Assembly (NCBI GenBank): GCA_949286835.1 | Contig: CASEDP010000002.1 | Location: 1 to 64,000, forward strand | Source: an uncultured Clostridia bacterium | GTDB lineage: Bacteria > Bacillota > Clostridia > Christensenellales > Borkfalkiaceae | Direction of reading: 5' to 3' | DNA length: 64,000 bases | Part shown: positions 27,844 to 34,929 of the stretch, piece by piece | Layout of the letters: each line of letters starts with the position of its first letter | Numbering within the stretch: position 1 is the stretch's first letter | Notes under the pieces: generated by a model | The model's input: only the letters and a program-made list of their open reading frames with translations | The model's database searches: none | What the model was told of the DNA's origin: nothing | Translations under genes and position numbers: made by a program

Positions 27844-27873
27844 TTGACAATTTTATGCTGAATATGGTAAAAT
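27844..27873 (+). promoter_or_regulatory. Promoter of the 46-residue peptide gene
   Basis: TTGACA and TAAAAT are 18 bases apart, about 70 bases before the start codon. Confidence 0.75.
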
Positions 27874-27942: not shown

Positions 27943-28083
27943 ATGAAGAAGAAAAGAATTCCTGCATTACTCATACTTGCGGCGGCGCTGATGTGCGCCG
28001 TCGGCGCGTCTGCCTGGGAAATTGAAGGCAGCGACAGCGACAGCGTTATCGTCCCCTGCATTGCCACAGTGTCCGCTGAATAA
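27943..28083 (+). CDS. Small secreted peptide, 46 residues
   Basis: The short frame begins MKKKRIPALLILAAALM and has a clear signal peptide: a positive start, a hydrophobic core, and an AVGASA cleavage region near residue 24. The mature part would be about 22 residues, acidic, with one Cys (EGSDSDS, then VPCIATVSAE). Support comes from AAGGGTG seven bases before the ATG, a strong promoter and a strong terminator, all in order. I recognise no family. It could be a signalling peptide or a small envelope protein. Confidence 0.65.
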   Translation: MKKKRIPALLILAAALMCAVGASAWEIEGSDSDSVIVPCIATVSAE

Positions 28084-28196
28084 ATGTGCCCATACCGCCG
28101 CTTTCGACCGCGGGGCAATATAATCTCACGGCGCGCAGGGCGGTGAGTGGTCTGAATACAACTTAACTATTATTTTCGCAAAACTCATATGAAAGA

Positions 28197-28239
28197 GCGG
28201 CACGCCCGAAGACTTCGGGCGTGCCGCTTTCATTTTTTT
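28197..28239. terminator. Bidirectional terminator between the peptide gene and the lipoprotein
   Basis: A 14-bp perfect stem (28197-28210 with 28214-28227) has a 3-base loop. Seven T's follow on the plus strand and a shorter T/C run on the minus strand. Confidence 0.85.
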
Positions 28240-28263: not shown

Positions 28264-29361
28264 TCAGCCGACGGGGACAAAATTTGCATACAGCGTCATA
28301 TCCGAAAGCACATAGGTAAGGTTGTCGAACTTGCCGTCGTTGACTGTGGGCGTCGGCGAAGTGTACCAGCCGACGAACTCATACCCCTCCTTTTCGGGCA
28401 GGGGAAGGGATATGCCCGCGGAATAGAAGTTTACGCCGTGGGAGAGCGTCTGCGTACAATAGGTTACGCCGTCCGCAACGAAGCGCACGCTGTGCCTCGC
28501 CTTGCTGTAATCCGAAAAGTCAAAGAGCAAACTCCACCCGCCCTCTGCAGATTTTACGTATATCTTTGCCGCCGAACTGTCGGTATAGTAGTCGCCGACG
28601 TTGCCTAGCGAGGGCGAAGGTTCGCCGCTGCCAGTGTGCCAGCGGTTGACTTTTGGTATTGTCAGGCTCTGGCTGGTGCCGTCGGTAAAACTTATTTCGA
28701 GATATACGTTGTCGGGGTCTATCGCCGTGAGCGCGCTGTCGACGGATATATTCTCTATGCCCGCGCCGTCCTCTCCCGCCTTCCCTCCGGCAACTGTAAA
28801 GGAGCTCTTTTCGCCGTCGTCATATTCGATACAGACCGTCGTTTCGCCCGTTTCGGGGTCTGTCGAAGAGGTTATTCGGGTTATGCGGGAACCGTCCTCC
28901 CCGTCCTTTCCGTCCTCGCCCGCAGGCAGCGTAATGACATAGGGGTCGAGACTGTCATCCGAAAAGTTTATGGTCAAAGTCGTGTCGCCGCTGTCGGCGT
29001 CGACGGAGGAAGAGACGCCGCTTATGAATGTGCCGAAGGGCAATGAAAACACGCTGTCCTCCCTGCCGTCGGTATATTCTATGGTAATCTGTGTGGCGCC
29101 GCCGTTTTCGTCAGGCTTGCTCGTTATGTCGGCAATTCCGGCACCGTCCTTGCCGTCGCTGCCGTCGGGTATTCTGAACATCGTGGGAGCGACGGACGGG
29201 TCGGAATAGATTATGGTCACCTCCGTATAGCCGTCATCCGTGCGCGAGCAGGAAATGCTCTCCACCGAAAGTCCGTTCTGCGCGACGCAGCCGCAGAGCG
29301 GAACGGCGATGACCGCAGCCGAGAGCGCCGCTCCCGCCAAAAATGCGGAAAACCTCTTCAT
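28264..29361 (-). CDS. Lipoprotein with Gly-Lys-Asp-Gly loops and a C-terminal InlB-like repeat
   Basis: The protein has 365 residues. A signal peptide ends in the lipobox VPLCGC, so Cys-24 would be lipidated. About four repeats of some 60 residues follow, each a beta-rich unit with an I-x-Y/F-x-DG core and collagen-like GKDG/GEDG loops. The C-terminus (GYEFVGWYT, then LYANF) resembles the Listeria-Bacteroides (InlB B) repeat. It is the last gene of the SipW/AAA+ operon and overlaps the previous stop as ATGA, with a strong SD (AAGGAGGG). It is probably a surface adhesin or anchor for the exported proteins of this operon. Confidence 0.75.
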   Translation of the reverse strand: MKRFSAFLAGAALSAAVIAVPLCGCVAQNGLSVESISCSRTDDGYTEVTIIYSDPSVAPTMFRIPDGSDGKDGAGIADITSKPDENGGATQITIEYTDGREDSVFSLPFGTFISGVSSSVDADSGDTTLTINFSDDSLDPYVITLPAGEDGKDGEDGSRITRITSSTDPETGETTVCIEYDDGEKSSFTVAGGKAGEDGAGIENISVDSALTAIDPDNVYLEISFTDGTSQSLTIPKVNRWHTGSGEPSPSLGNVGDYYTDSSAAKIYVKSAEGGWSLLFDFSDYSKARHSVRFVADGVTYCTQTLSHGVNFYSAGISLPLPEKEGYEFVGWYTSPTPTVNDGKFDNLTYVLSDMTLYANFVPVG

Positions 29362-30668
29362 CTGTCACCCTCCTTATAGGTTACACCCCGTCCGACCAGC
29401 CACATCGTCCCCTTGCCCAGGGCGTATTCCGTGCCGCAGTCGGCGCATACATACAGCCCGTCTGCGCACCTTACAGACCTGCCGCCGCAGGACGGGCAAA
29501 TTCTTGAATAGACCGCGCCGTCCGCCGCTATCAGCGCCGTTCTCTCCGCTATGTAGCGCGAAACAAGCTCGCCGAAGTCGCGGAACCATTCGGTGCGGCG
29601 GCTCTCCCCGCAGATTTCGGCATATCCGCGCGGCGAGACGAGTGCATAGCGTTGCGGCAAACTCCTGCCGCCCGCCGCGCTCTCCGAACACACATTTTCG
29701 CAGAAGAACACCCTCTCGGTCACGGGATTGAAGGGCGAACGCGCAAAGGCGCGGCAAAAGAAAACAATGTCAGCGCAACCTTCGGCATAGTCGACCTTTA
29801 AGCCGACGGAGAACTTTTCGCCTTCAAACCGGACGGGCGAAGAGAACGCCGAAAATATGCCGAACTCCCCGCCGCTGCGCCGACCTTCGGCGCCGAAACC
29901 GAGCGAGAGCAGCCTTGACGAAAACAGCGCCGAAAAGCAGGCGGCAATCTGCGGGTAAATCTGCGATTGGTCGGCACATATTTGCCGACGAACGCTGTAT
30001 CTGTAACATTTTTTATATCGCGGTTCGTCGAGAAGAACGTTGGTCGGGGAGGGCAATTCAAACTCCTTGAGGCGCGGCGAAAGGCGCAGAAAGAATTGGC
30101 TCTGCATCAGCCTTGCCGCCCTTGAACATACGCCGTCGAGCAGTGCGAATGCACGCCCGAAGAGCGGTGAATTTCCGCCGACCGCGCCGCCGCAATCGAG
30201 CCTCTTTGCCGCCGAGGAATAAATTTCGCGGTATTCGCTGAGCTGAGAGCGGATATCGCAAACGAGGCGGGCAACAAAATAATTTTCGGCGTTTTCAAAG
30301 TCGTCGACAAGGCGCGAAGAGCGGACATATTCGGGCGACATCCCGCCGCGCTTTCTGCGCCACAGCCTGCCGTCCGATACGGTCAGCGCAAAGTCGCGCG
30401 GGGAAAGAGGGCGCGCGCAGGACGCAAGGACAATCTCTTCCTCTCGCCGTACTTCGACATATGGGTCAGAAACTATTTCCGAAACGGCTGCGAGCACTTC
30501 CTCCGCTCCGTCGAAAAAGGCAATATCAGCCGACAGCGGCAGCGTACAGATTTTGCCCGCACGCAGTGCAACTTTTGTGGCGTACTCCCCTTCGTCCGCG
30601 CAGGTCGAGGCGATTTGCGCGAGCTCTTTCAAAGCCCGCGATATCTGCTCAAACAGCTCCTTTGTCAC
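29358..30668 (-). CDS. Zinc-ribbon protein next to McrB-like AAA+ (possible McrC/DUF2357 relative)
   Basis: The protein has 436 residues, no signal peptide and no TM helix. The C-terminus carries a zinc ribbon (CPSCGGRSV, then CADCGTEY). The middle has PTNVLLDEPRYKKCYRYSVRR, followed by helical sequence, which recalls DUF2357 regions of McrC-type partners. I see no PD-(D/E)XK nuclease motif. It starts at GTG 30668, two bases after the AAA+ stop, with GGGAG upstream. I infer that it is an adaptor or activator of the membrane AAA+ protein. The family call is tentative and Arg/Ser-rich stretches blur it. Confidence 0.55.
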   Translation of the reverse strand: MTKELFEQISRALKELAQIASTCADEGEYATKVALRAGKICTLPLSADIAFFDGAEEVLAAVSEIVSDPYVEVRREEEIVLASCARPLSPRDFALTVSDGRLWRRKRGGMSPEYVRSSRLVDDFENAENYFVARLVCDIRSQLSEYREIYSSAAKRLDCGGAVGGNSPLFGRAFALLDGVCSRAARLMQSQFFLRLSPRLKEFELPSPTNVLLDEPRYKKCYRYSVRRQICADQSQIYPQIAACFSALFSSRLLSLGFGAEGRRSGGEFGIFSAFSSPVRFEGEKFSVGLKVDYAEGCADIVFFCRAFARSPFNPVTERVFFCENVCSESAAGGRSLPQRYALVSPRGYAEICGESRRTEWFRDFGELVSRYIAERTALIAADGAVYSRICPSCGGRSVRCADGLYVCADCGTEYALGKGTMWLVGRGVTYKEGDR

Positions 30669-30670
30669 CG

Positions 30671-32437
30671 TCAAAGCTCCCTGGCAAGGCGGTCGATTTC
30701 CCCCTCGCACCGACGGAGAACGCCTCCGCCGTACAGACGGGCAATGAGTTTGCGCAGGTTTCTTAGCGACGCGTCGAAGTGACTGCCGAACCTACCCGCA
30801 AGCTTTACCGCCAGCTTTTGGGAGAGCACGAGGTCGACAAGCGAATTCACCTCGCCGCCGCAGGCGACAAACGCGGGCACCAGCCTTTCGAGACGGTTTG
30901 CAATTCTGTTGCCGAAAGCGACGCCGAAATTTTCATAGAGGAAGTCGCACACTTCAGACAGTTTTGCGCGGTCGGCGTCTGTGAACGCGGCGGCATACTC
31001 TCTCTCCGCCTCCGCAAACATCCTGAAGAGCGCCGAACAGCCGAGCTTTAAGGGCTGTCCGTCCTCTGCGGCGAAGGGCGCGTTGCGCCTTTCAAAGTTG
31101 ATTGTCACCGCGCGGTCGTACACCTTGTCTGATATGGCAAAGGTGGAGCCGTCCTTGTTTGCCGTGCCGACGAAGATGCAGTTGCGGGGTATGGCAAGAC
31201 AGCCGCCGACGAGTTTTTCGGGAGGAACAAAGCCGAGCGGCGGCTGAATAATTCTTATTTTCTGCTCATCTTCGGGATATTCGAGCACCGACAGAAAATC
31301 GGCGAAGTAGTACTCCACGCGGGAGATGTTGAGCTCGTCGAGCACAAAGACATATATGCGCTCGCTGTCATAGTTTGCCTCGTACAGCGCGGCGAGAAAG
31401 TCGGTCTGATTGTATGTACCCGTAAAGTCGTTGACATAGCCGAGTATGTCCGACCTGTCCCTCCACGTGGACTGCACGGCGACGAACACCGACCTGCCGC
31501 CGACATATTCGGCAAAATACCTGGGCAGCGACGACTTGCCCGTGCCGCTAAGCCCCTCCAGCAGAATGATTTCGGAACAGCACAGCGCGCTTATGAACAG
31601 GCGTATGACGTCCTCCTCGTAGTAAAGTCCGCGGCGTGAGGCGAGAAAGTTCCTGAAGCCGCGGCAGAGATATGAAGGTGAGACGTCCGCGCCTTCCGAA
31701 AAGAGAGCGCCGCAGCGCAAGTCAATGCCGTCGTCATCTGAAATATACCCTTCATCGCCCAGATTGGCATAAGCCCTGTCTATCTCGCAGAGCGCGGGGA
31801 AGAGTTTTTCCATGCTCGGCGGGGCGCTTGCCTCGCCGCCAAAGACATCCGAAACAGTGCCGCAATTACATTTTCCCGCCGTATCTCCGCCCTTTGCAAG
31901 CGCGGTTATAAGAAGATATACAAAGAACACCGCAAGACAGAAAACCGCATAGATTATGAGCGACATCGCAAGACATTCGGCGAGAAAGATATACCGCACC
32001 CTGACGAGCTCGCCCGAAGACGAGGGCAGGACGAACGACAGCCCGAGCGAGAGAATGAGACACATAACGACGGTAAAGGCGTATATCGCCGTCTGTCTGC
32101 CGGACAGCGGGTCTTTGCCGCACGCGACGGCGGAGCGTACCTCGCAGACGACTGCAAAGACGCAAACCGTAAAGTAAATTGCGCACAGCAGCACGGTTAT
32201 CATTCCGCCAATGCCCGCGCAAACCTGCGGGAAGCCCATTCCCCACGCAAGTTCGGCAACGGCGTTATTTCTGAACGCAGTGACGGGGTTGGCAAGATAT
32301 GTCTGCCCGTCCGCCGCCCTGACCTCCTCCGTGAGGTTGAGGAGCACCGCCACCGCCGCAAGCGTGACCGAATAAAGCCCCGCAAGCGACAAAACTATCC
32401 TGTTTTTGGGCGTAAACCGCCTGTCAGCCTCTGTCAT
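30671..32437 (-). CDS. Membrane-anchored McrB-like AAA+ NTPase
   Basis: The protein has 588 residues. Four TM helices (about 14-34, 74-100, 116-137 and 149-178) precede an acidic linker and an AAA+ domain. The AAA+ domain has Walker A EGLSGTGKSSLP near 295, Walker B YVFVLDELNISRVE near 364, and a sensor segment IFVGTANKDGS followed by an Arg in KVYDRA. The LDELN and GTANKDGS forms are McrB-like rather than ClpB- or FtsH-like. No restriction domain is fused. The ATG at 32437 has GAGAGG upstream and lies 14 bases inside the signal peptidase gene. A TTG at 32458 is the longer alternative. An McrB-type motor fixed in the membrane is unusual. Confidence 0.8.
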   Translation of the reverse strand: MTEADRRFTPKNRIVLSLAGLYSVTLAAVAVLLNLTEEVRAADGQTYLANPVTAFRNNAVAELAWGMGFPQVCAGIGGMITVLLCAIYFTVCVFAVVCEVRSAVACGKDPLSGRQTAIYAFTVVMCLILSLGLSFVLPSSSGELVRVRYIFLAECLAMSLIIYAVFCLAVFFVYLLITALAKGGDTAGKCNCGTVSDVFGGEASAPPSMEKLFPALCEIDRAYANLGDEGYISDDDGIDLRCGALFSEGADVSPSYLCRGFRNFLASRRGLYYEEDVIRLFISALCCSEIILLEGLSGTGKSSLPRYFAEYVGGRSVFVAVQSTWRDRSDILGYVNDFTGTYNQTDFLAALYEANYDSERIYVFVLDELNISRVEYYFADFLSVLEYPEDEQKIRIIQPPLGFVPPEKLVGGCLAIPRNCIFVGTANKDGSTFAISDKVYDRAVTINFERRNAPFAAEDGQPLKLGCSALFRMFAEAEREYAAAFTDADRAKLSEVCDFLYENFGVAFGNRIANRLERLVPAFVACGGEVNSLVDLVLSQKLAVKLAGRFGSHFDASLRNLRKLIARLYGGGVLRRCEGEIDRLAREL

Positions 32438-33218
32438 TTTCCTCTCCCGCGGGCGCAATCGCTTTGAGGCGCGCCGCCCTGCACTGTTCTATGCGGCGGA
32501 AAGTCCCGTCCCATATCAATATCAGTATTACAAGCCCTGCGACGGTTATCAGACCCGCGCCGGACTGAATGAAGAGCACGACTGCGCCAAGATATTCGAC
32601 GTGGTCGCCGCTGTATTTGCCCAGAACGTCCGAAAAAGCGGGGCGGTAATCGTCGTTTAAACCGTTAGCGTCGCCGCGCATCGTATAGCGCACCCCGTCG
32701 CCGTCGCCATCTATCGCAACGACGCGGTGAATTATAGTAAGTCCGTCGTCATTTTTATATGCGAGAATGTCGTAGAGCTCTATCTCGCACGGGGCGTCGA
32801 CCCTGTCGAGTACGATAATGGAATACTGCCCGAACCCCTCCTCGCTCCAGCTATCGGCGAGGCGGGAGTTTGCGGGATTTATGACGCTCATAGAGCCTGT
32901 GGCTACCGCCATTATGCCCTTGCGTGCGACAAGCCTGCCGCCGTTTATTCGGGTGATGACCAACAGAACGATAAGCGGCACGAAAATTATGACGAGCAGC
33001 CAGAACGCCGCCGTCTTTATGCGTGACCATATTCTGCCCGCCGCCGCGCGGGAATGATCCCTCTTTGCTCCCTCTTTGAGTTCCGCATCCCTTTCGCCGC
33101 CTTCGATTGCCCGTCGTTCGCGCCGCCCGTACATTCGCAGAAACAGTGCGAAAGAGACGACCACCATACCTACGCCGACAAGGGCGAAGAGCGCGGCGAC
33201 TATCTCATACCAATACAT
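32424..33218 (-). CDS. sipW: ER-type signal peptidase I, SipW-like
   Basis: The protein has 264 residues with TM helices near 5-28 and 70-90 and a C-terminal one near 215-235. The catalytic Ser-109 is in ATGSMSV, and the second conserved motif has His-164 (TIIHRVV) in place of the bacterial Lys. That makes it the Ser-His, SipW/eukaryotic-ER type. SipW in Bacillus processes TasA and TapA of the biofilm matrix. Here the two upstream genes encode likely substrates, and the AAA+ gene overlaps its end. A charged loop of about 35 residues follows the first TM helix. Confidence 0.9.
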   Translation of the reverse strand: MYWYEIVAALFALVGVGMVVVSFALFLRMYGRRERRAIEGGERDAELKEGAKRDHSRAAAGRIWSRIKTAAFWLLVIIFVPLIVLLVITRINGGRLVARKGIMAVATGSMSVINPANSRLADSWSEEGFGQYSIIVLDRVDAPCEIELYDILAYKNDDGLTIIHRVVAIDGDGDGVRYTMRGDANGLNDDYRPAFSDVLGKYSGDHVEYLGAVVLFIQSGAGLITVAGLVILILIWDGTFRRIEQCRAARLKAIAPAGEENDRG

Positions 33219-33250
33219 ATAGTTTTATTCTTCCCGTCGGGCAGCCGCAT

Positions 33251-33976
33251 TCAGGCGGTCGCCCTTATAATTATCCTATAATTCTGTTCGCCTGCGGACA
33301 GAAGATACTTGAATTCGGTGAGGGTTTCCATCATCTCCGCGTCGGAGACATATGCGCCTGCATCCTTGTCGACGGCGCCGTCCTCATCGAGGTACACCTT
33401 GTCGTAGTAGATGCTGGGATTATCGCCGCGGAAGCGTTCGCCCCAGCCGAGAGAAATTTCAAAGCTGAAGTCCAGCCACGACACTCCTTCGGCACCTGTT
33501 ACGATGTCTGAAGGCGCGTAATCGACGGCTATTTCCCGAGGAACGCCGCACCCCAAGTCGTAATAAGCAGAGACATCGACATATTCCGCCAGCGCCGCCT
33601 CGATTACGCCCTGCGGCAGAATTACGAAAAAGCTGAGTTCGGAAAGTTTTTCGGCGTTTATCAATCTCCCGCTCACTTCCGCAGTCAGATTTTCGCCGCC
33701 CGTTCCGTCCCAACGGATGCGCCCCTCCTCATCGCCCGCAAGACTGCCGAAAACTATGTCCGCACCTTTGGACACATCGCCGCCGTTCAGCTTGAGGTTT
33801 TCTATCCGCAGAGAGCCGCCTGCAACATATTCTATTGCGACGTTGCCGTGCCTGTCGGCGGCGCTGTCGGCAACGACTATGCACATCACCGTGCCGGTGG
33901 TCACAGCCCCCGTACACATTAAGGCGGCGACCAACTTCAAAAAACTCATTCCGCAGTTGTTATGCGAATTTGCCAT
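33251..33976 (-). CDS. Exported SipW-substrate-like protein 2
   Basis: The protein has 241 residues with a hydrophobic N-terminal segment (FLKLVAALMCTGAVTTGTVM) and no lipobox. The rest is acidic and beta-rich. It shares with its upstream neighbour a late motif GWGE-x-F-x-G-x-NP (here LGWGERFRGDNP) and a C-terminal hydrophobic beta strand. It is probably a TasA/camelysin-like fibre or minor subunit, although sequence identity to TasA is not obvious. The ATG has AGGACGG upstream. Confidence 0.65.
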   Translation of the reverse strand: MANSHNNCGMSFLKLVAALMCTGAVTTGTVMCIVVADSAADRHGNVAIEYVAGGSLRIENLKLNGGDVSKGADIVFGSLAGDEEGRIRWDGTGGENLTAEVSGRLINAEKLSELSFFVILPQGVIEAALAEYVDVSAYYDLGCGVPREIAVDYAPSDIVTGAEGVSWLDFSFEISLGWGERFRGDNPSIYYDKVYLDEDGAVDKDAGAYVSDAEMMETLTEFKYLLSAGEQNYRIIIRATA

Positions 33977-34022
33977 AAATTAAACCGTCCTTAGTGCATT
34001 TAACTATGCGCTTGCCCTGCTT

Positions 34023-34805
34023 TTACTGTTCGGCAGTGAGCGTAAGCACGAAAGTCGCCAAAGAACTGCCATAGTTGGTCAAAGTATTGCTGAGCTTTGA
34101 GAGGACGTCGGTTGCCCACTGCCGCGCGGGCTTGGCGCCGACCCCGTCACCCCTGACCAGAACGCCGTCCGCAGATTTTACCAGCATATCGTCGGGCGAA
34201 AAGGTGTTGAAGAAGATGAGCGGATTGACGCCCGCAAACAGCTCTCCCCAGCCGAATGTGAGCTGAACGTAGATGTCCGTCGCCTGATCGGTTTCGGTCA
34301 AATTTACTATCTTATATTCTCCCGTGCCGAGCTTGTCCGCGCCGAGCGCGACTTCCCCCGCAGGCACATACGGATAGGAAAAGCTTCCGTCCGTCTTGAA
34401 ACTGAGCTGATAATCGGTGATTATGCCGTCGGATATACATTCGTTATATATAGCCGTGATATCCACCCCGTCGCACTCCACGCCGAGGCTGACGTTTATT
34501 GCGCTCACGTCGCCGGAATAGGTCAAAGTCATATTGAACGCAAGCTGCTCGGCAGCGCCGTCGTTTTCCAGCCAGGGCGACTGAACGGCTATGCTTTCCT
34601 CCGGTCTGCCGTAGACGACCGAAGAGCCCTCCTCTACGGTCGCGCTCAGCGTAATTCCGTTCACAACGGTGTCGACATAAATATTTCCGCCCGTTGAAGC
34701 CGCCGTCTGACCGCCTATAACCCACGCGGCAAAACCTATGCCGACCAGCGCAAACCCGCTTACCGCCGCTGCTGCCATTGCGACAATTTTTGACGCATTT
34801 TTCAT
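34023..34805 (-). CDS. Exported SipW-substrate-like protein 1 (TasA/camelysin type)
   Basis: The protein has 260 residues. The N-terminus (MKNASKIVAMAAAAVSGFAL, then GIGFAAWVIGG) is the long, weakly charged signal typical of SipW substrates, with likely cleavage near residue 35. The mature part is beta-rich and Thr/Asp/Val-rich, with FGWGELFAGVNP near 190. It is first in the operon and so probably the most abundant product. The ATG at 34805 has AGGGGGG upstream. It likely forms surface fibres, by analogy to TasA. Confidence 0.75.
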   Translation of the reverse strand: MKNASKIVAMAAAAVSGFALVGIGFAAWVIGGQTAASTGGNIYVDTVVNGITLSATVEEGSSVVYGRPEESIAVQSPWLENDGAAEQLAFNMTLTYSGDVSAINVSLGVECDGVDITAIYNECISDGIITDYQLSFKTDGSFSYPYVPAGEVALGADKLGTGEYKIVNLTETDQATDIYVQLTFGWGELFAGVNPLIFFNTFSPDDMLVKSADGVLVRGDGVGAKPARQWATDVLSKLSNTLTNYGSSLATFVLTLTAEQ

Positions 34806-34855
34806 ATGGCTGCCCCCCTCTTTTCTCAAAAAATGTTAACTTGTGTTTATATTAA

Positions 34856-34867
34856 ACAAATATTTGT
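34856..34867. repeat. Palindrome in the leader of the sip operon
   Basis: ACAAATATTTGT is a perfect 12-bp palindrome 50 bases before the first gene. Nearby TTGTAAA and TTTACAA (about 34863-34890) form a further dyad. The whole leader is AT-rich. Confidence 0.4.
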
Positions 34868-34900
34868 AAAAATAGTTAATTATTTACAATATTTGATGTA

Positions 34901-34929
34901 ATTATACAATATGTAGTTATTTTAGTCAA
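34901..34929 (-). promoter_or_regulatory. Promoter of the six-gene sip/AAA+ operon
   Basis: TTGACT (34929-34924) and TATAAT (34906-34901) are 17 bases apart. The start near 34894 leaves a leader of about 90 bases. It is the only clear promoter for 34805 down to 28264. Confidence 0.8.

Follow-up and report, generated by a model that had tools for sequence, protein, structure and literature searches.

Why should an operon for exported proteins encode a membrane-bound relative of a restriction enzyme? The question is raised by a 64,000-nt stretch of DNA (the window) from a Clostridia-like gut bacterium, in which six co-directional, tightly packed genes on the minus strand (34808-28264) join a SipW-type signal peptidase and two exported proteins to an McrB-like AAA+ NTPase. 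We know of no NTPase motor for SipW-dependent surface proteins. The reading we favor, at a probability of roughly 0.55, is that the operon is a dedicated system for export and assembly of surface proteins with a membrane-anchored McrBC-type NTPase, in which the AAA+/McrC pair probably acts as a motor or switch for a surface structure and not as a DNA-cutting system. An original prediction for this locus had proposed surface-fibre assembly or quality control; surface assembly is now backed by six related pairs linked to type IV pili, with quality control and defence as less probable rivals.

Architecture and exported products of the operon

All six open reading frames were present in the window, as predicted. 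Their coordinates are listed below together with the predicted expression signals.

34901..34929, minus strand: promoter-like site TTGACT-17-TATAAT (predicted by consensus scan, 11/12 matches)
34023..34808, minus strand: exported protein 1, 261 aa; signal peptide end GFAAW; WGxxF..NP motif
33251..33976, minus strand: exported protein 2, 241 aa; family of exported protein 1; degenerate signal end, no FAxW
32424..33218, minus strand: SipW-type (ER-type) signal peptidase; NF046067 and TIGR02228 matches
30671..32437 (about), minus strand: membrane McrB-like AAA+ NTPase; about four TM helices; NxD motif GTANKDG
29358..30668, minus strand: McrC-like zinc-ribbon protein; DUF2357 domain and C-terminal zinc ribbon; GTG start
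28264..29361, minus strand: lipoprotein; one Listeria-Bacteroides (Flg_new) repeat (PF09479, 5.8e-10)
28194..28230, no strand assigned: strong terminator-like hairpin 3' of the operon

Gaps of 46 nt (exported 1/exported 2) and 32 nt (exported 2/sipW) precede a 14-nt overlap between sipW and the AAA+ gene, a gap of about 2 nt between the AAA+ and zinc-ribbon genes, and an ATGA overlap containing the lipoprotein start; the last four genes overlap or nearly touch, as had been claimed. The AAA+ gene was assigned an ATG start at 32437 (alternative start: TTG at 32458), and the McrC-like gene has an alternative start at 30710. The same six genes in the same order, followed by the same downstream flank genes, were found in a congener (genome G688, locus L141) at 40-71% protein identity, on a contig that stops just upstream of the operon. 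Because frame is kept in all six genes between the window and L141, with pN/pS values of 0.32-0.56, we consider the six genes real and constrained. The one clear promoter of the original prediction fared less well: the TTGACT-17-TATAAT site exists at 34929-34901 and resembles a TTGACT-18-TATAAT site upstream of the L141 operon, but a regional scan returned 21 promoter-like sites against 7.2 expected by chance (about a threefold excess), so any single site is little proof, and this one is a plausible operon promoter as judged from its sequence. Just past the operon terminator and facing the operon, positions 27943-28083 (plus strand) hold a possible exported micropeptide of 46 aa (beginning MKKKRIPALLILAAALMCAVGASAWEIEG), for which a separate TTGACA-18-TAAAAT site lies at 27844.

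The signal peptidase matched NF046067 (E 4.6e-15) and TIGR02228 (1.4e-12), both below the curated cut-off. It has an extra N-terminal TM segment and a conserved cytoplasmic loop, and most orthologues also have a long C-terminal tail that is missing from the window protein. The two exported proteins form one unnamed family, confined in the window genome to the six-gene operon, with the consensus FAxW at the signal-peptide end and a C-terminal WGxxF..NPxxYY motif; exported protein 2 of the window has lost the FAxW end usual in its relatives. The consensus agrees with B. subtilis TasA, in which an aromatic residue occupies P2' of the SipW site (PMC10269814). Pfam and NCBIfam searches returned no meaningful match for this family or for an ~800-aa surface protein encoded at related loci. 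The AlphaFold2 model of exported protein 2 (pLDDT 84) is beta-sandwich-like; in fold comparison, unrelated folds scored highest (Z 5.0) and chaperone-usher pilins reached about Z 4, values to which we attach no weight. The fold search gave no significant match to known fibre subunits, a result compatible with a distant relation to TasA or TapA.

In common with tapA-sipW-tasA of Bacillus and other SipW loci, the operon encodes a dedicated signal peptidase of the ER type together with exported proteins in which the signal ends in an aromatic residue near the cut. It differs in its unnamed substrate family and in the addition of the AAA+/McrC pair and, usually in relatives, of an ABC transporter; judged by recognisable substrates, it would not count as a TasA operon. 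A second sipW in the window genome (L134, G000:C3:20000-34000) adjoins exported proteins of TasA-like appearance and has no AAA+ gene beside it.

The membrane AAA+ protein and its McrC-like partner

Residues 274-445 of the AAA+ protein matched E. coli McrB structures (E about 1e-3). The Walker A sequence of the protein is GLSGTGKS and its Walker B VLDELN, and its signature GTANKDG has the NxD form that was found in 116 of 122 AAA+ relatives. The four-TM McrB-like protein of the original prediction is well founded: 4-5 hydrophobic segments precede Walker A, from which about four TM helices are predicted. This hydrophobicity, together with a weak charge bias of the loops toward an N-in, C-in topology, would place the AAA+ core on the cytoplasmic side.

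The zinc-ribbon protein had been recognised as such, and its homology to McrC had been missed. The N-terminal domain of McrC, DUF2357, identifies it as a homologue of that protein: the domain was detected in 30 of 43 orthologues (McrC-Zn) at E <0.01 (best 2e-11), with the window protein reaching E 0.004 only, under the cut-off. Alignment of its AlphaFold2 model (pLDDT 82) gave Z 9.2 against T. gammatolerans McrC (139 residues) and Z 7.8-8.1 against E. coli McrC, placing McrC among the top structural matches; since unrelated helical proteins also scored Z 7-9, the assignment rests on the family-wide sequence match. Foldseek by itself was not significant for McrC-Zn (E 0.46); the McrC assignment is carried by the DUF2357 matches and VIA. 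In the predicted structure, the long helices belong to the DUF2357 region, and a zinc ribbon forms the C-terminus. All four zinc cysteines are invariant in McrC-Zn, while conserved acidic and lysine columns of a catalytic D...(D/E)xK set were looked for in residues 232-385 and none were found, so the protein is probably not a nuclease.

The pair shares its AAA+ core and DUF2357 activator with canonical McrBC of E. coli K-12. It has NxD in place of NxxD, TM helices in place of the DNA-binding domain, no conserved nuclease residues and a context of export genes. With differences in motif, nuclease and N-terminal domain alike, the pair does not belong to canonical McrBC.

To our knowledge, every characterised McrBC system is a restriction system, which speaks for a function in defence or conflict, in which a membrane McrBC would sense phage whose receptor is the fibre or the pilus and respond by export shutdown or a surface change. 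The AAA+ core does match PDC-M26A (3.6e-39), a PADLOC model of the candidate phage defence system PDC-M26, although none of the other operon components matched a PADLOC model at E 0.001 or better. The patchy distribution of the operon and its lower conservation (40-71% identity) than most flanking genes would also suit defence. We nevertheless consider this reading unlikely, given the absence of conserved nuclease residues from McrC-Zn, the lack of a HEPN or other nuclease in the operon, a viral-contig search in which 94 pattern matches yielded no confirmed relative, and the position of the pair among structural and export genes. Were it correct, the pair would guard surface appendages.

Gene contexts of the pair and a proposed mechanism

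To place the pair in its gene contexts, we searched one genome per species and kept the best 80 matches, ordered by similarity to the AAA+ protein of the window. These gave at least 79 loci in Clostridia and Bacilli, and 60 distinct McrB-4TM/McrC-Zn pairs were scored from the listed loci and those of sampled genomes. Among these listed matches and sampled genomes, sipW lay just upstream in 41 of 60 pairs; the remainder ended a type IV pilus operon (6), stood alone (6; L032, L033, L075, L089, L098 and L140) or were cut by contig ends (7). Between one and seven copies of the exported family were present upstream in 39 of the 41 sipW-linked loci, while little upstream sequence was available for the remaining two, and a lipoprotein orthologue lay downstream in 38; missing cases of either were mostly due to contig ends. 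The expected co-occurrence of sipW, exported proteins and AAA+/zinc-ribbon pair is thus borne out, with the exported family in every sipW-linked locus that has enough upstream sequence. Overlooked by the original prediction was a block of ABC permease and/or ~800-aa surface-protein genes, which lies downstream in 37/41 loci and is absent from the window and G688 operons; the ~800-aa protein was also not found elsewhere in the window genome (a weak test with a single divergent query). Spacing was tight, with sipW-AAA+ gaps of ≤60 nt in 38/40 cases and AAA+-McrC gaps of ≤60 nt in 58/60 (one duplicate contig is included twice in these counts).

Phylum-wide sampling returned almost no further carriers, and sampling was therefore done at the level of the order. 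Across 396 genomes of the window's order, full-length McrC-Zn was found in 16, strong exported-family matches in 13, and both together in 11, against about 0.5 expected (p 4e-16, uncorrected for relatedness). Since the exported-family profile was built from such operon loci and species kinship was uncorrected, this co-occurrence gauges exclusivity and is not an independent discovery.

SipW export is not strictly dependent on the motor, as exported-sipW genes occur without an adjacent pair in genomes G028 and G637 (loci of this kind: L151 and L153). In G028, the chromosomal site equivalent to the window's holds one exported gene and sipW only (L153:8400-11600, G028:C13), with AAA+, McrC and lipoprotein genes absent from the site and a different AAA+/McrC-Zn pair on another contig. 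Such loci, and the lone pairs, would fit genes that are neighbours by chance or by hitchhiking in a mobile cluster and are not functionally coupled. That explanation strikes us as highly improbable: across 41 distinct loci that have diverged strongly, the pair keeps its place after sipW and before the downstream genes, and reading frames often overlap; context also tracks clade in the AAA+ tree.

The six pairs of the second context have no sipW; each closes a type IV pilus operon and lies directly 3' of pilB (L082, L083, L085, L086, L137 and L138, with L083 truncated). Pfam matches confirmed both PilC and PilB in L082 and L085 (for L085, T2SSF 7e-60 and T2SSE 1e-128) and PilB in L086; PilD, PilM-like and prepilin-like genes 5' of these pairs were assigned with our own profiles and by eye. 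No mention of a link between an McrBC-like pair and type IV pili was found in the parts of the literature searched. The use of one AAA+/McrC pair by two unrelated export systems is the strongest evidence for a role in surface structures; it is independent support for that role and makes a motor or switch probable, not a DNA cutter. A separate idea, that the pair substitutes for the retraction ATPase PilT, was rejected: in the five pilus-linked genomes tested, a single full PilB-type ATPase was present and PilT did not pass the cut-off, but the same picture was seen in G784 and G014, which carry sipW-linked pairs, so the pattern does not discriminate.

In the mechanism we propose, two related precursors would be exported by Sec, stay anchored through an N-terminal TM segment, and be cut beside the aromatic residue by the dedicated SipW, as in TasA. 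The McrB-like protein would form an AAA+ ring at the inner membrane face, held by about four TM helices and activated by the McrC-like protein through its DUF2357 stalk, with a zinc ribbon in place of a working nuclease. Nucleotide-driven movement may then drive or gate a step in which membrane-anchored subunits are released or polymerise into a surface structure; the lipoprotein would sit at the outer face, and type IV pili, whose subunits are likewise N-terminally membrane-anchored, may reuse the same pair. Ring formation, use of GTP and contact with SipW are inferred from McrBC, as parts of a mechanical role that is itself putative.

The same parts could instead serve membrane quality control, with the pair extracting stalled or misprocessed N-terminally anchored precursors in an FtsH- or Msp1-like manner. 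FtsH has a TM-anchored AAA+ layout that resembles the one predicted here, and both contexts involve N-terminally anchored subunits (SipW substrates and prepilins). The operon has no protease domain or partner, however, exported-sipW genes occur without the pair, and we know of no polypeptide translocation through McrB pores. Although an uncleavable TasA precursor blocks Sec in E. coli (PMC10269814), which speaks for this reading, we hold quality control to be doubtful.

Relation to CoCoPALM and other described McrBC lineages

The original prediction had found no described equivalent and had taken known McrB proteins to be soluble. Both statements are superseded by CoCoPALM, a group of NxD McrBC systems with a membrane segment and linkage to signal peptidases that was named in a 2024 eLife census (PMC11090510), which in its passages on the group defers their analysis. 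As outlined there, the GTPases of CoCoPALM have an FtsB-like TM/coiled-coil domain, and their McrC proteins contain coiled coils (PMC11090510). The NxD McrB-like GTPase, membrane segment, McrC homologue and signal-peptidase neighbour are common to CoCoPALM and the window, as is the surface-assembly context proposed for the former. In contrast to CoCoPALM so described, the window lineage has about four TM helices in place of such a coiled coil in the AAA+ protein, a C-terminal zinc ribbon and a clade of its own. Its loci add an exported family that is defined here and a lipoprotein, as a rule also an ABC transporter, while six pairs belong to a type IV pilus operon.

A maximum-likelihood tree of 122 AAA+ domains (quick search, unrooted, with a long window branch) gathered all zinc-ribbon pairs but one in a single group (support 97), outside which fell the coiled-coil SipW-linked loci and those with a tandem McrB-McrC-McrB arrangement (96); the one zinc-ribbon pair outside the group, L080:106-2877, sits on a very long branch. 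Judged by alignment, the window lineage shows a gap where coiled-coil-type relatives have their coiled-coil stretch, and it carries about four TM helices instead. Coiled-coil loci of the window's genus and order (e.g. L038, L043, L046-L048 and L050) fit CoCoPALM as outlined in the census. Since NxD and the signal peptidase are common but the coiled coil is absent, the window lineage is not filed as CoCoPALM; by that outline and our own tree, it looks like a sister variant and not CoCoPALM proper.

CoCoNuT systems, as far as the census describes them (PMC11090510), also belong to the NxD branch and have McrC homologues with zinc ribbons, and the inactivated PD-(D/E)xK folds in McrC of Type II CoCoNuT compare with the window McrC and its lack of nuclease residues. 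They differ in their coiled-coil architectures, predicted RNA binding and accompanying nucleases, and export genes are not part of that description. What the present analysis adds is the concrete architecture of a related lineage, its defined exported family and the unexpected type IV pilus context. The odds seem to us evenly balanced that an McrBC lineage has given up nucleic-acid restriction and now serves as a membrane-anchored motor or switch for N-terminally anchored subunits in at least two unrelated surface-filament or export machines; if such a filament motor exists, evolution has made cell-envelope machinery out of a restriction enzyme.

Two further arrangements were seen among the relatives. 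At L080:106-4451, an extra AAA+ gene (923 aa, about 11 hydrophobic segments) and McrC-Zn lie just upstream of an ordinary sipW-linked locus. The tandem McrB-McrC-McrB loci (L037, L039, L040, L042, L101, L114, L121, L123 and L127) have a large protein of ~1100-1200 aa encoded upstream; the copy in L037 contains a GH3 C-terminal domain and is followed by a repeat protein rich in (W)xxMPEDFDWNNxPW.
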